The translations under genes and the position numbers were made by a program. This document shows positions 14,407 to 21,451 of a stretch of DNA of 64,000 nucleotides, piece after piece. The stretch covers positions 1-64,000 of the forward strand of contig PWXV01000324.1 in NCBI GenBank assembly GCA_003568415.1, written 5' to 3'. Below the pieces are notes generated by a model, which saw only the letters and a list, made by a program, of their open reading frames with translations, ran no database searches and had not been told where the DNA came from. The first letter of the stretch is position 1. Each line of letters opens with the position of its first letter. Origin of the DNA: Ignavibacteriales bacterium. GTDB lineage: Bacteria > Bacteroidota > Ignavibacteria > T3Sed10-11.

Positions 14407-14443
14407 ACCGCAGACCGTCCCGTTTCCGGTCTGCGGTTTTTTT
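14407..14443 (+). terminator. Rho-independent terminator of maeB
   Basis: Perfect 10-bp stem ACCGCAGACC (14407-14416) / GGTCTGCGGT (14428-14437), 11-base loop, followed by seven T. It starts 23 bases after the maeB stop. Confidence 0.92.
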
Positions 14444-14500
14444 ATGCCGGCCGAATTCAACCGCAGTTGGATTAATCTACCGACGCTGCTTTTTAGCCCA

Positions 14501-14562: not shown

Positions 14563-14616
14563 TCAATATTGATTTTACCCGAAACATTGAGTAAAATTAC
14601 TCAGTACATTGAGTAA
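14563..14616. promoter_or_regulatory. Cluster of TGAGTAA half-sites, probable operator
   Basis: A near-perfect palindrome, TGAGTAA-AA-TTACTCA (14588-14603), is followed by a third half-site TGAGTAA (14610-14616). The copies at 14585 and 14607 share the longer direct repeat ACATTGAGTAA. A further small palindrome, TCAATATTGA, lies at 14563-14572. All sit within 70 bases upstream of the start at 14632, the usual place for a repressor or autoregulator to act. The binding protein is unknown. Confidence 0.5.
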
Positions 14617-14631
14617 TTTGCATAACATCCT

Positions 14632-15786
14632 ATGCCGCACCGTTCATCTCTGAAAGCCAATATAATACTCGAAGAAAAGGATGTGTTAAACATCAAAGGA
14701 CCCGCTGCATTCGAATGCAAGGGTGAAGCACATATCCTCGGTGTACCGGTGGGTGACCGGGAGTTGTCCATCAGAGGAGATATACAGATTCCGGTAGAAA
14801 CCGGCTCTCAATGTCACATCGCCGTTCACGCGGCGCAAAGTGTGCAGGTTTCGAACAGACATTCGAGCGGTACATTCATATGGCGGGATACGGTACAACA
14901 TATTCTCGATGCATCTCCCCGGTCCGTTGCGATAATCGGAAAGAACGATACCGGTAAGTCCACCTTCTCCGTGTATCTGGCCAATGAACTGATCAGTGCC
15001 GGCGGGCGTGCGGTACTGATCGATTCCGATATAGGACAGGGTGACCTTGCTGCGCCAACCTGCATCGGCGGTGTTTTACGATATAAGCCATTGCTCAGCG
15101 GACGACTGGTGAAACCGCACCGCTGGGGTTTCATTGGTAGAACATCGCCGCATGAAGTCGAAGACCTGATTATTAAAACAATATGTCAGATTGAAAAGGG
15201 ATTTTCGAAAGGTACGCGCCTCATTAACACCGATGGCTATGTCGATGTCGACGGACCCGGTTTTGAATACAAAAGAAAATTGATCGATTCGACCGGGCCG
15301 GATATCATTTGTGTACCCGGCAATACTGAGATATATAAAAATTTCTCCGAATTGTACGGTGATAGAGTGCTTTCGGTTCCGGCGCCCGATATACCGTGGC
15401 GAACGCCCGCCATGCGCCGGGAAAAACGGTTGAAGCAGTTCCGCCGCTTTTTAAGAAATGCCGGATACCGGACGATTGCTCTGGATGATATGCATTTCTG
15501 GTATAAGGGAAGGTTTTGCAGTGTTGATGAAATACCCGGTCCGTTGCTGCACCGGTTCGCCGGACTTACCGTTACGACAGATCGCGAACGGAAGATGGTA
15601 AACGATTCACCGGTTAGTATTGAACGGCGTCTGGGAGAAATAGGGATCGGGGTGATCAGATCGGTAGATGAGGAAACCCAAACGGTGTCAATTCAGAGCC
15701 GTTATACCGGCGATTTTGATACGATTCTTCTCGGTGCAATTAGATTCGATATGAGTCTTTCAAGAGCGGAGAGTATTGAGTGCTAA
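14632..15786 (+). CDS. Clp1/Grc3-like polynucleotide 5'-hydroxyl kinase
   Basis: 384 aa. The family phosphorylates 5'-OH ends of RNA or DNA and is best known from eukaryotic RNA processing (Clp1, Grc3/Nol9) and archaea. Visible family marks are an N-terminal beta domain (about 10-70, with IKGPA and ILGVPVGD), Walker A GKNDTGKS (103-110, K109), the Clp1-type second motif DSDIGQGD (131-138), a GFIGRTSP segment (166-173) where the family has fvGxxsP, and INTDGYVDVDGPG (198-210), equivalent to the NTxGWxxGxG motif. A C-terminal region of about 110 residues is less recognisable. The gene stands alone behind a palindromic operator-like cluster and converges on the TPR-CHAT gene, 18 bases away. Substrate is unknown. 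An alternative is a different P-loop activity on this fold. Confidence 0.75.
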   Translation: MPHRSSLKANIILEEKDVLNIKGPAAFECKGEAHILGVPVGDRELSIRGDIQIPVETGSQCHIAVHAAQSVQVSNRHSSGTFIWRDTVQHILDASPRSVAIIGKNDTGKSTFSVYLANELISAGGRAVLIDSDIGQGDLAAPTCIGGVLRYKPLLSGRLVKPHRWGFIGRTSPHEVEDLIIKTICQIEKGFSKGTRLINTDGYVDVDGPGFEYKRKLIDSTGPDIICVPGNTEIYKNFSELYGDRVLSVPAPDIPWRTPAMRREKRLKQFRRFLRNAGYRTIALDDMHFWYKGRFCSVDEIPGPLLHRFAGLTVTTDRERKMVNDSPVSIERRLGEIGIGVIRSVDEETQTVSIQSRYTGDFDTILLGAIRFDMSLSRAESIEC

Positions 15787-15804: not shown

Positions 15805-18800
15805 TTACACGCCGATCATCACAAATCCGCTCCAGAAAATGGGTAGTGCCGTATCATCCTGTTCAATCATACGTAATTTTGTGTTTCGCAGCGCTTCGGT
15901 GTAGGTCTCTCCTTGCAGAACGTGCCGGTAGAATTCCTCCATAAGATCGGCGGTGTGGCGGTCGGTTACTTTCCATAGAGAGACAAGCAGATTGCGGGCG
16001 CCGGCGTGGATAAATCCGCGTGTGAGTGACATGATCCCCTCGCCGCGCTGTAGTGTTCCGACTCCGCTTTCGCAACTGCTCAGTACAACGAGATCACTAT
16101 CGAGATTAAGTCCGTATATTTCTCCCGCGAAAAGAATATCACGTTCTCCCTCGATATCGGAATAATCGCCTGGTGAGAATAGCACTCCCGACAGCATCGG
16201 TTCCTCTTCGTTAAAGAAACCGTGGCTTGCAATGTGGATGTGCGTATACTCTTCGGCTGTAGCGAGAAAATTTTCCTTTGTCGCATCTGAATGATAGAAA
16301 CCGGCAGTCCGATGATCTTCCATGCCGAACAGATTGACAATTGCATGTACCTCTTCTTCACTATGCGGCAGGTCGGGAAACCATGCAAGTGAGAATTCCC
16401 GGGTAGGCTGCTCAGCACTATCCCGTGCGTATGCAAGATTCACGGGACGTGCGTTTTCATCACGGTCTGTTGTGAAGACAGGAGCGAATCCGGCAAACCG
16501 CGGTTGCGGTGTTCTGGTAATCGTATCACGCTCCTGTTCGAGTTTGTATACAGCGAGCTTCGATGAATAATTATAGGTGATAGAATATTCCTGTATCAGA
16601 TACTGAAGCGAAGAGAATGATATGTTCCGGTAATCGTCATAAACCGCTTCGCTAATAAGTGTTTCGAACGGAAGATGATGCAGTGCTCCGTCGGGAATAA
16701 TCACCAGTTTATCGCGGGATTCGATTAACGGCAATGCCGGTTCGATCAACTGTGTATATAATTCTGTGCTAACGTTTATAAAATCCTGCGGGTTAACGAG
16801 GCGGATAGACCGTCGCAGTCTGTTTGTGAAATCCTCTATTTGCTCAGACGGGGCGAGCTTAATAATTGAATACTCTTTATCGTTCATGACAAACAAAAAG
16901 CTATTTTTCCCCCCGAGATGGAATTGCAGAAGAGCGGTATTCTCATCGAGCACATTCTGCGTTTGAGAGATTGACGGTGAAGAGATATCGTGTTTAAGTG
17001 CAAAATACCGGGGATATTCCTGTTCGAGTTCGGTAATGAAACTCCGGTACTTCATCAACGAGTCGAAATAATTTTCACGAATCGTTTGATAGTTGTCCGA
17101 ATCGGATCGTGTCCGTTGATACCGCATTCGTGTCTGAATAAGCTGCCGGTGAATTTCCTGTTCTTTATCCAGTTTTTCATCGGGTATGCCGGCAAACGAA
17201 CGCGCTCGTGAGTCGATTATCGATTCCCACAGAAGCAATGCCCGGGAATGTTCGGCAAAGGTAAAGGCATCTTGCACATACTGAGGTTCGCCGCTTGCTT
17301 CGTAAAGCAGGAATAATGTGTTGACCGCTTCATCGAAAATGTCCGCGCTGAAATCGCTCAATAAAAGCTTCGACTGTTCTGCTGTATAGGTATTACGTAA
17401 TAGATCGGTGACATGCCTTGCCGTATGATATAACGGTATCGCAGCGTATAACGGTTCAAGGTTCCCGGGTGTGTCTGCATACATATTGTGATATAATTGT
17501 GCTTTCTCTGCCAACGCGTTCAGCAAACTTCTGTTTATAATAGACCGGTCATAGATAGAATGATCATGGACATCCATGCTATCGAAACCCGGCACCAGTG
17601 AAGCGATCGCCTTCCGGTAGTTAATCAATGCATTATCATAATCTTGCATCGAGCGGTACGTGTTACCGACATAAATATACGAGTCGGCGGTTTGCGTAGA
17701 ATGTTCACCGAATATCTGCAGCCGTTGCTCTATGGCATCGCCCAAAAACGCGAGTGCTTTATCATAGTGACCGGTTTTTTTATAGACGACACCGATGTTA
17801 TTCAGGCTTTGTGCAATATCCGGATGGACATTGCCGAGAATTTCCCGCCGCATTTCGAGCGATTCAGTGAGATATGCTAATGCGGAATCATAATCGCCGG
17901 CGCTCCGGTACGTTACACCGATATTGTTTAAAACCAGTGCAATGCTTATATCTTTTTCACCATATACCGATCGCCTGATATCGAGAGCTTTTTTATAATA
18001 CTTGATTGCTTCTTCTTCCATCTCCTTGCTTGAATATATTACCCCGATATTCATGTAGTTGTCGGCTGTTAGCCGGTGTTCTTCACCCTGTGTGGCCAGA
18101 CGTATTGCAAGCGCTTGATGGTAATACTCAAGCGCCGCGTCGTAATCGCCCCGTTGCCGTGCGACGATGCCCAGGTTATTGTACGATGATGCAACATCCG
18201 GATGTTCCTCTCCGAGGAGCGATATTCTCATAGCAAGACTTTTGCTATAGTTTATAACTGCCTCGTCGTAGTGGTCCATCACGCTGTAAAAAGAACCGCG
18301 TAAATTATAGCTGTCGGCAATCCGTTCATGTTTTTTACCAAATGCTGCTTCCCGGTGGGTAATAGACTTATTTATATATACCATTCCGGAATCGTAATCG
18401 CCGAGGATAAATTTGGTGAGGGCCAGAAAGTAATACGATTCTCCGATACGGGGATCATTATCGGGAAGAAATTTTACCCGCAGATTGAGTGCCTGTTTCT
18501 GGTATTTCTTTGCAGTTTGAAATTCACGTGCGCTGCGATAATGCTGGCCAACGCTAAAATACGCATCGGCCATAGAGATATGCGCAGAATCGTAGTAATC
18601 GGTATGTGTTTCAAACTTTTTGAGGAGTGAACTGCATTGTTCCAGATAATGGGCGGCACTGTCGAGTTGTTCCTCACGGGCAAATTCTTTTACCTGATCG
18701 ATCAACGTGAAAAACTTCTCATTTGGATCTCCTTTAATTGAGGAGGCAGGAGATGCGGCAATGAGAAGAAGCAGTCCACTGATAGCTATATATACAAAAC

Positions 18801-18813
18801 CACTGAACTTCAT
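15805..18813 (-). CDS. Exported TPR-CHAT protein (caspase-like peptidase domain)
   Basis: 1002 aa. A signal peptide or N-terminal anchor lies at residues 1-26. Residues about 50-420 hold some eight to nine tetratricopeptide repeats of the kinesin-light-chain type, 42 residues each, with motifs such as SYNNLG and ALxIRxxxxGExH. A helical linker follows, then a CHAT domain (about 690-1002). The caspase-type dyad is present: H864 in ASHGFF and C914 in LSSCESG, with the conserved SLWKVTD downstream. CHAT proteases are known in type III-E CRISPR complexes and bacterial gasdermin defence, but many Bacteroidota TPR-CHAT proteins have no assigned role. Nothing here places a gasdermin or CRISPR gene beside it. 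The gene is a single unit, divergent from the small zinc protein. Confidence 0.85.
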   Translation of the reverse strand: MKFSGFVYIAISGLLLLIAASPASSIKGDPNEKFFTLIDQVKEFAREEQLDSAAHYLEQCSSLLKKFETHTDYYDSAHISMADAYFSVGQHYRSAREFQTAKKYQKQALNLRVKFLPDNDPRIGESYYFLALTKFILGDYDSGMVYINKSITHREAAFGKKHERIADSYNLRGSFYSVMDHYDEAVINYSKSLAMRISLLGEEHPDVASSYNNLGIVARQRGDYDAALEYYHQALAIRLATQGEEHRLTADNYMNIGVIYSSKEMEEEAIKYYKKALDIRRSVYGEKDISIALVLNNIGVTYRSAGDYDSALAYLTESLEMRREILGNVHPDIAQSLNNIGVVYKKTGHYDKALAFLGDAIEQRLQIFGEHSTQTADSYIYVGNTYRSMQDYDNALINYRKAIASLVPGFDSMDVHDHSIYDRSIINRSLLNALAEKAQLYHNMYADTPGNLEPLYAAIPLYHTARHVTDLLRNTYTAEQSKLLLSDFSADIFDEAVNTLFLLYEASGEPQYVQDAFTFAEHSRALLLWESIIDSRARSFAGIPDEKLDKEQEIHRQLIQTRMRYQRTRSDSDNYQTIRENYFDSLMKYRSFITELEQEYPRYFALKHDISSPSISQTQNVLDENTALLQFHLGGKNSFLFVMNDKEYSIIKLAPSEQIEDFTNRLRRSIRLVNPQDFINVSTELYTQLIEPALPLIESRDKLVIIPDGALHHLPFETLISEAVYDDYRNISFSSLQYLIQEYSITYNYSSKLAVYKLEQERDTITRTPQPRFAGFAPVFTTDRDENARPVNLAYARDSAEQPTREFSLAWFPDLPHSEEEVHAIVNLFGMEDHRTAGFYHSDATKENFLATAEEYTHIHIASHGFFNEEEPMLSGVLFSPGDYSDIEGERDILFAGEIYGLNLDSDLVVLSSCESGVGTLQRGEGIMSLTRGFIHAGARNLLVSLWKVTDRHTADLMEEFYRHVLQGETYTEALRNTKLRMIEQDDTALPIFWSGFVMIGV

Positions 18814-19132: not shown

Positions 19133-19366
19133 ATGGCACAGTGTGAAGTTTGTGGAAATGATTATGATAAGGCTTTCGAGGTAATACAAAACGGTGAAAA
19201 GCACACGTTTGACAGCTTTGAATGTGCGATCCATGCTCTTGCACCAACATGCGATAAATGCGGATGTCGGGTTATCGGGCATGGCGTAGAATCGAACGGT
19301 AGTATCTTCTGTTGTGCCCACTGTGCATCAAAAGCAGGTGTCACCGAAGCAAAAGACCGGGTTTAG
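19133..19366 (+). CDS. Small cysteine-rich zinc-binding protein
   Basis: 77 aa with a strong AAAGGAGGA site 5 bases upstream. Nine cysteines are arranged as C4-x2-C7, one in DSFECAIHA, C-x2-C-x-C (CDKCGCR), and C-C-x2-C near the end (CCAHC), plus several His. This suggests two or more zinc sites, like a short zinc ribbon or metallothionein-like fold. I recall this family as widespread in bacteria, usually annotated as hypothetical, with the conserved stretches FDSFECAIHALAPTC and GHGVE. No enzymatic motif is visible. It may be a metal buffer or a small adaptor. It is followed by a repeat region and the restriction-modification genes. Confidence 0.7.
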   Translation: MAQCEVCGNDYDKAFEVIQNGEKHTFDSFECAIHALAPTCDKCGCRVIGHGVESNGSIFCCAHCASKAGVTEAKDRV

Positions 19367-19728
19367 TAGGCGGTGCACAACAGGAGAACCTTTAAAAAAT
19401 TACCACAATTGCAATTTTATGCAATTGTTGAATGAACACCCCTAACGGCGGCTTACAAGAAGAGAAAACTACATTACCATAACGCAGAGGTCGCTGAGTG
19501 CGCAGAGGATTGCAGAGAAAGTTTTAATAATATTTCATTTCTTTCTCTACGTTCTTTTCGGCCTCTGCACTGTTATTGACAAATTAGCGATTGCTATCCC
19601 CTATTATTTCATTTTTTCCGACTCAATTTCGTTTTTAAAATACACAGGACGCTGAATCCTCTTTGCGTCAATCATACGAAATATTTATCTTGATACTTTA
19701 TCACACCACGCAAGGGAACCTGAACTGT
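19367..19728. other. Intergenic region containing a degenerate GCAGAGG repeat
   Basis: About 360 bases before the methyltransferase start. It holds the repeat listed at 19481-19570. In-frame codons from TTG 19663 could extend the methyltransferase, but I judge ATG 19729 the better start. Confidence 0.5.
19481..19570. repeat. Degenerate GCAGAGG intergenic repeat with inverted halves
   Basis: The left arm has two GCAGAGG words (19484-19490 and 19502-19508) and AGAGAAAG (19514-19521). The right arm has CTTTCTCT (19541-19548) and CCTCTGC (19562-19568). It therefore folds as two nested stems around 19522-19540. Words of the type CGCAGAGG in tandem are common intergenic filler in several bacterial genomes. 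It borders the restriction-modification module. Confidence 0.55.
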
Positions 19729-20799
19729 ATGCATGAAAAGCTTACTATTGATAAATCCAACTTCATCGGGTTTTTGGAAGAATTACATAGCTCATCCGAT
19801 TTATCCTCAATTCGCTCAAAACTCAGTGAGCTTGTAGCTATTATTGATGATGCATACGGAAACAGTAAGGGAATAGTTACCACTGACAATAATGGAGACA
19901 CAATTGAGCTTTCAAGATCTTATCTTATTAATGAACTAACACAGATCAAAAAAACACACACGCTCGAGCGGACGAAGTATTACCTGCAAAGATTGATCAA
20001 AGGGGTTACGGAAATAAAGACAACCGGTATCAACGATATCAATCTCAACAGGTGGAAGGAATACGATGAGATACTCACCGATAGTTTGTGGGTACTGCCG
20101 AAACGGGATTCATACGGGGCGCATTCTTCCTGGTACTGGGGAAATTTTATACCACAAATACCGCATCAAATGATGCTGCGATATACCAAAGCGGGTGAAC
20201 TTGTAGTTGATCCATTTGTCGGAAGCGGCACGACCTTACTTGAGTGTCAGCGTTTGGGAAGGCACGGCATCGGCTTAGAACTGAATGAGGATATAGCCGG
20301 ACGTACAAGAGAAATAGTGAAGGATGACGGTAAGGTTACCACCATCATTGAGACCGGCAACAGCGCTGAGATTGATTTTCAAAAGCTTCTCTCAGATAAC
20401 GGTTTCGCATCCGCTCAATTGTTACTGGTACATCCACCGTATCATGACATAATACCGTTTAGCGATAATCCGAAAGATCTGTCGGCACAGAAATCTGTGG
20501 ATGCTTTTCTACATCTCTTCGGGAATGTGTTAGACAATATATATCCAATCCTCGATAAAGGCAGGTTTATGGCGGTTGTTATCGGTGACAAATACGAAAA
20601 AGGGGAATGGATACCGCTCGGCTTTTATATAATGCAGGAAGTACTGAAGCGAAAATTCAAGTTGAAGAGTACCATTGTAAAAAACTTTGAGGATACTACC
20701 GCCAAAAGAAATCAGAAGGAACTCTGGCGCTACCGTGCCATGGCCGGAGGTTTCTATATTTTCAAACACGAATATATTTTTGTGTTTCAGAAAAAATAA
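19729..20799 (+). CDS. Type II DNA methyltransferase (N4-cytosine/N6-adenine class)
   Basis: 356 aa from ATG 19729. It transfers a methyl group from S-adenosylmethionine to an exocyclic amino group of a base and protects host DNA from the adjacent nuclease. SAM-binding motif DPFVGSGTTLLEC starts at D161, followed by GIGLELN. The catalytic motif IV reads HPPY (235-238) with His in the place of the usual Asp, Asn or Ser; I recall THPPY-type variants among N4/N6 methylases, so it is probably active. Motif order is I before IV. The N-terminal 100 residues are helical and may recognise the target. The nuclease gene follows after 4 bases. Specificity cannot be read from the sequence. Confidence 0.85.
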   Translation: MHEKLTIDKSNFIGFLEELHSSSDLSSIRSKLSELVAIIDDAYGNSKGIVTTDNNGDTIELSRSYLINELTQIKKTHTLERTKYYLQRLIKGVTEIKTTGINDINLNRWKEYDEILTDSLWVLPKRDSYGAHSSWYWGNFIPQIPHQMMLRYTKAGELVVDPFVGSGTTLLECQRLGRHGIGLELNEDIAGRTREIVKDDGKVTTIIETGNSAEIDFQKLLSDNGFASAQLLLVHPPYHDIIPFSDNPKDLSAQKSVDAFLHLFGNVLDNIYPILDKGRFMAVVIGDKYEKGEWIPLGFYIMQEVLKRKFKLKSTIVKNFEDTTAKRNQKELWRYRAMAGGFYIFKHEYIFVFQKK

Positions 20800-20803
20800 A
20801 ATA

Positions 20804-21451
20804 ATGGATCTTGATAGAATCGAGCGGGAATTAAAAAAACGTCTTGCCTATCCGTATGCATGGGGCAGAAAGCAAAACGATCACTTCGATAAAAGAACAC
20901 AGTTTATATACGATACGCATACATTTGAAACATTGTTTGCAAGAATAAAGAAAACATTCCGTGATGATCCTCGCTGCGATGCATTAACAATGTATGCAAT
21001 GAATCGCTGGTATAACTACTGGTCTGCACGTGCGGTTGAAGAAATATTCTGTCGTATGCCGGGTGTTGAACCTGAACGGGATGTACGAAACCGGCTTGCC
21101 GATTTTTCTGTACACGGTATCCGCTTTGATCATAAAACGACAGTTTTTCCGAAAAGTTATAACGGAACGATTGAACAAGCCCGGACACATCCGGAAGAGT
21201 TGATAAGGTGGTTGTATTCTAATCAGTCACAGGGAAGCCGTAACCATGCCAGGAACAGATTATTCATTGTACTCTATTCATATGATAATGAACACTGGAA
21301 ATTGAAAGCCGAGATCGCATGGTTGCGGAATATAATCGAGTCGTATGTTATACAGTTTGACCGGGCAAAGTTATTGACTTTTAATTTTGAGGATGGCATT
21401 CCGACGCTTGCCGATGTTATCTGGGGAATAAAAAAGTCCAAAACGGCGTGA
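20804..21451 (+). CDS. Type II restriction endonuclease, PD-(D/E)XK fold
   Basis: 215 aa from ATG 20804, four bases after the methyltransferase stop. The frame is open further left inside the methyltransferase, but this ATG is the natural start. The catalytic pattern is D100-x8-D109-H110-K111 in the stretch HGIRFDHKTTVFP, the DxK half of a PD-(D/E)XK site, with an upstream Glu (E79/E80) on a preceding helix. Length is typical of a simple type II enzyme. I recognise a DHKT-x-FP pattern from other restriction enzymes of this kind but cannot name the recognition site. Tight coupling to the methyltransferase and the flanking repeat suggest the pair arrived together by transfer. Confidence 0.75.
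   Translation: MDLDRIERELKKRLAYPYAWGRKQNDHFDKRTQFIYDTHTFETLFARIKKTFRDDPRCDALTMYAMNRWYNYWSARAVEEIFCRMPGVEPERDVRNRLADFSVHGIRFDHKTTVFPKSYNGTIEQARTHPEELIRWLYSNQSQGSRNHARNRLFIVLYSYDNEHWKLKAEIAWLRNIIESYVIQFDRAKLLTFNFEDGIPTLADVIWGIKKSKTA

Follow-up and report, generated by a model that had tools for sequence, protein, structure and literature searches.

Introduction

Clp1 has been surveyed in bacteria by Saito et al. (2019), who recorded it in 144 bacterial species, or 0.9% of complete bacterial genomes, with short and long N-terminal forms, of which the long form is mainly archaeal but has bacterial cases too (PMC6777427). The Clp1 of Thermus scotoductus (Ts-Clp1, UniProt E8PQM6) lacks both flanking domains and is still an RNA 5′-kinase that phosphorylates single-stranded RNA, double-stranded RNA and, at high enzyme levels, single-stranded DNA (PMC6777427). 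In metazoans, phosphorylation by CLP1 is thought to compete with ligation by RTCB (PMC13247085). Here we describe a clp1-like gene (14632..15786, + strand) in a 64,000-nucleotide stretch of genomic DNA from an Ignavibacteriales bacterium, hereafter the window. Its product of 384 amino acids is a predicted polynucleotide (RNA) 5′-hydroxyl kinase and adds a new example of the rare and scattered bacterial Clp1, which has already been described and tested in one species.

Results

The clp1-like protein belongs to the Clp1/Grc3 family

The open reading frame at 14632-15786 begins with ATG and is complete and uninterrupted over its 384 codons, whereas on the opposite strand stops break the antisense reading; the gene is present in one copy in the host genome. 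We judged family membership against the curated Pfam cut-off over the whole kinase domain, for which CLP1_P (PF16575) matched with E=1.3e-24 and 87.5 bits (cut-off 26.6) in an alignment that spans residues 103-274 of the protein and positions 1-186 of the 188 of the profile. The second-best Pfam family, CbiA (E=0.013), stayed under its cut-off, no other P-loop family in Pfam exceeded its own, and an NCBIfam search likewise returned no family above its cut-off. Sequence searches of the PDB placed Caenorhabditis elegans CLPF-1, human CLP1 and NOL9 at the top, and a profile built from the protein and three relatives added Grc3 and yeast Clp1.

The AlphaFold models are of low confidence (predicted local distance difference test score, pLDDT, 49), with alignments of only 4-6 sequences, and a second model from six sequences (pLDDT 49.3) brought no improvement. 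Nevertheless, the 19 top-ranked chains retrieved by Foldseek with the first, template-free, low-confidence model were all Clp1/Grc3, at a template-modelling score of about 0.45, and the best match was human CLP1 (387 alignment columns, E=1.8e-17). A fold search of a viral structure collection gave no full-length match. Because the model is weak, we treat the fold evidence for the flanking regions as support and not as proof. The profile, the PDB sequence comparison and, within the low confidence of the model, the fold comparison agree on the Clp1/Grc3-like polynucleotide kinase family that a preliminary description of this DNA had proposed, and the profile search that it had suggested produced a significant CLP1_P match and no better P-loop family. 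The protein is thus confirmed as a true Clp1/Grc3 family member in a bacterium.

The kinase motifs are intact

The motifs that the preliminary description had read by eye lie where it placed them, namely the Walker A motif or P-loop GKNDTGKS (residues 103-110; 14938..14961, + strand), which reads GKNDTGKST (103-111) with the following residue, DSDIGQGD at residues 131-138, and INTDGY at 198-203 (INTDGYV, 198-204). Within the second of these, the Walker B motif DSDIGQ (residues 131-136; 15022..15039, + strand) contains Asp133, the presumed general base. The clasp motif GRTSPHE (residues 169-175; 15136..15156, + strand) aligns with GHTSP of CLPF-1, and the lid motif RTPAMRREKRLKQFRRFL (residues 257-274; 15400..15453, + strand) aligns with RTGQIRSKMRGENVHRYF of the same protein. 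A motif test for Walker A, a DxDxGQ Walker B, a TSP clasp and an R..R lid found all four, and they line up with the motifs of CLPF-1 and retain the residues that are invariant among the relatives (G103, G108 and K109; D131, D133, G135 and Q136; G169, S172 and P173; R262 and R266). With every one of these motifs in place, an active polynucleotide 5′-hydroxyl kinase is predicted, and we consider it quite probable that the product of 14632-15786 is a Clp1-family member with 5′-kinase activity.

The protein fits the long form of Clp1

The kinase domain is flanked by about 95 residues on its N-terminal and 110 residues on its C-terminal side, and neither flank matches a Pfam family above cut-off. 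The N-terminal region (residues ~1-95; 14632..14916, + strand) was delimited by alignment with shorter relatives from the phylum, which lack it, and is predicted to be beta-rich, at low confidence, in the first AlphaFold model. With 102 residues ahead of the P-loop, where archaeal-type Clp1, which combines a long N-terminus with a Clp1_aC domain, has more than 60 before the kinase domain, the protein fits the long N-terminal form of Clp1.

Ts-Clp1 resembles the clp1-like gene in being a sporadic single-copy gene but differs in size and architecture, since it is a protein of ~27 kDa with neither N- nor C-terminal domain, whereas the window protein has 384 amino acids and both flanks. Archaeal Clp1, for example that of Pyrococcus horikoshii, is of similar length (archaeal mean 376 +/- 46 amino acids, PMC6777427). 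It also has a long N-terminal region ahead of the P-loop. The host of the window protein is bacterial. CLPF-1, human CLP1 and Grc3/NOL9 have the kinase domain, the motifs and, as judged from the low-confidence model, the overall fold in common with the window protein, which differs from eukaryotic Clp1 and Grc3/NOL9 by its bacterial host, an identity of about 20% and a Tyr for the Trp of INTCGW. The TSEN/Pcf11 and Las1 settings belong to the eukaryotic proteins, and the bacterial host is not known to have them.

Clp1-like genes are rare and scattered in the phylum

No clp1-like gene was found in five congeners, whose genomes are each 68-88% complete. At E<=1e-8, CLP1_P was detected in 2/391 genomes of the class (the host genome and G214), and the family occurred in 7/396 genomes from 3 genera in a sample of the phylum and in 8/245 genomes of another class of the phylum, 7/8 of which are from a single genus (g45). 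Two genomes of this last set show only an incomplete or fragmented CLP1_P match (G087:C41, L049; G787:C220/C168), through a frameshift, an assembly error or a contig break.

Phylum relatives (G043/G047/G080/G508, G101 and G214) encode Clp1-like proteins of 283-318 amino acids that score above the CLP1_P cut-off and carry the same invariant residues; they are 20-26% identical overall to the window protein and lack its N-terminal region of ~95 residues. The window protein is thus a long-form example in a phylum where our analysis otherwise found short forms only. The neighbours of the relatives' genes, identified by eye, are unrelated and comprise a chorismate-synthase-like with a reductase-like gene, a small DUF971-like gene and a MobA-like gene. 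A further candidate relative, L002, was discarded as its match is the antisense of rpoC.

The GC content and codon usage of the clp1-like gene fall within the host range, so that composition gives no sign of a recent import. A viral origin was likewise dismissed after scans of viral contigs with the protein, alignments and DNA patterns yielded no Clp1 relative, and tblastn searches with the protein against phage and plasmid collections gave nothing at E<=0.01. PHROG 32231 matches the protein weakly (E=7.7e-6), with 26.4 bits for the whole protein and 19.2 for the kinase domain alone.

The host encodes RtcB, an archease-like protein and MazF-family toxins

The host genome encodes RtcB (E=9.7e-177). 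A gap of 15 bp separates rtcB from the gene directly upstream of it, which was read by eye as archease-like (G000:C222, L088:5456-7333). It also contains two genes for PemK/MazF-family toxins. Cleavage by MazF leaves 5′-OH ends.

Transcription unit and neighbouring genes

A hairpin with a T-run (14409..14447, + strand; CCGCAGACC...GGTCTGCGG then TTTTTTT) lies 3′ of maeB; it was read by eye and is unlisted by the automatic scan. It likely separates maeB from the clp1-like gene, which is therefore probably its own transcription unit. The preliminary description had assigned this lone gene an operator-like region, and a repeat search indeed revealed direct and inverted repeats upstream of it at 14575..14619 (ACATTGAGTAA ... 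TTACTCA ... ACATTGAGTAAT; no strand assigned), a possible operator for the clp1-like gene alone. A regulon did not emerge, because the palindrome WTTGAGTAANNTTACTCAR has one further exact match in the genome, inside an iron-sulphur oxidoreductase gene, a site with one mismatch on contig C73 has no comparable gene downstream, and genome-wide the other matches fall within unrelated coding sequences. We accordingly rejected a shared operator regulon.

A TPR-CHAT gene (15805-18813, - strand) lies tail-to-tail with the clp1-like gene at a distance of 18 bp, and an N6/N4 DNA methylase gene, followed by an open reading frame of 214 amino acids (together 19663-21451), starts at 19663, 3.9 kb from the clp1-like gene. 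These positions agree with the preliminary description, but the functional link to CHAT or to restriction that such closeness might imply finds no support. A partnership with CHAT was rejected in view of the convergent orientation, the signal-peptide-like, secreted-type N-terminus of the CHAT protein and the congener G004, where a CHAT homologue adjoins a different gene. The methylase gene is a strong match to PADLOC MTase_II, and the 214-amino-acid open reading frame, for which neither Pfam nor PADLOC gave a match, could be its restriction partner.

The place after maeB differs in every congener with a contig that reaches beyond maeB: in the closest congener, G002, a type IIG restriction-modification gene starts there (L034:2-856), G003 has a small gene and an SppA-like peptidase gene, and G005 an aldo-keto-reductase-like gene. 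Because the region is a mosaic, nearness to CHAT or restriction genes counts for little. Related methylase genes occur in other settings in G001, G003 and G005. The window further encodes a cysteine-rich protein of 77 amino acids (19133-19366), whose CxxC pairs resemble those of a zinc ribbon and which has no match in Pfam. Its Por_Secre_tail and DUF2851 proteins suggest the Bacteroidota group in the broad sense.

Discussion

The preliminary description had presented the family as known mainly from eukaryotes and archaea, which implied that a bacterial case would be a surprise. Rare it is, but the family had already been surveyed in bacteria and one of its members shown biochemically to be an RNA 5′-kinase (PMC6777427). 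Based on the biochemistry of the family, including the Thermus scotoductus enzyme, together with the intact motifs, ATP-dependent phosphorylation of 5′-OH RNA is predicted for the window protein, and we infer its catalytic activity, RNA preference and cellular role as follows. The kinase would use ATP to phosphorylate the 5′-hydroxyl ends of RNA and, more weakly, of DNA. Its substrates would be 5′-OH RNA fragments from MazF-type or other metal-independent endoribonucleases, whose ends, once phosphorylated, would be unusable by the host archease-RtcB ligase, which requires a 5′-OH, and would be opened to 5′-phosphate-dependent decay or processing. Because RtcB and archease are present and a search of the host genome (94.9% complete) for the RNA ligase PF09414 found none, the kinase would withdraw substrates from RtcB while feeding no known sealing step. 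Such a competition with RtcB, as argued for metazoan CLP1 and RTCB (PMC13247085), would be the likeliest role, though we give it somewhat less than an even chance. Considerably more speculative is the proposal that one species of an archease-RtcB genus captured a long-form, archaeal-like Clp1 and gained a two-way 5′-OH switch, in which RtcB would seal and Clp1 would phosphorylate the ends during toxin-induced RNA cleavage.

Several observations weigh against an active 5′-hydroxyl kinase that competes with RtcB. An ATP-dependent RNA ligase could be missed in a genome that is 94.9% complete and was searched for one ligase family, no conserved neighbour gene ties the clp1-like gene to RNA repair, and Tyr203 occupies the Trp position of CLPF-1 and human CLP1 (INTCGW). 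Moreover, yeast Clp1 keeps the fold and ATP binding without kinase activity (PMC6777427), so that the window protein might be an ATP-binding but catalytically inactive scaffold or regulator of the same kind, to which the C-terminal third without a Pfam family match would also be agreeable; we rate this as improbable, given that the Walker A lysine, the Walker B aspartates, the clasp and the lid arginines are all kept. A different P-loop NTPase, of the MinD/ParA kind or a GTPase, with Walker motifs that mimic Clp1 can practically be dismissed. The weak ParA/MinD matches (E=0.013-0.06) trail CLP1_P by over 20 orders of magnitude, CLP1_P covers clasp and lid, and Clp1/Grc3 proteins head the fold matches, even if annotation frequently labels the Clp1 proteins of bacteria as GTPases (PMC6777427).

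A defence or anti-phage RNA-repair enzyme, tied to the nearby restriction system and the variable locus after maeB, would account for the patchy distribution of the clp1-like gene, for the methylase gene 3.9 kb away and for the type IIG restriction gene that follows maeB in the closest congener, with other genes there in two more. Yet the post-maeB genes of those two are ordinary and gene order is mosaic in general, the plasmid and phage collections contained no match at E<=0.01, and PADLOC assigned the protein to no defence family, with only a weak P-loop match to mad8 (E=0.0013). In addition, the codon usage of the clp1-like gene is host-like, whereas that of the methylase is the furthest from the host among the genes compared. 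We therefore regard a defence role as slightly less probable again than an inactive homologue, and prefer an active 5′-hydroxyl kinase of the Clp1 family.

The window gene leaves the known picture of bacterial Clp1 unchanged. If true, the two-way switch would mirror in a bacterium the competition between CLP1 and RTCB that has been proposed for animals. Bacterial Clp1 is rare, and a host with RtcB, archease and MazF-family toxins, set against congeners that seemingly do not have the clp1-like gene, offers a natural comparison for the function of a bacterial 5′-OH kinase.
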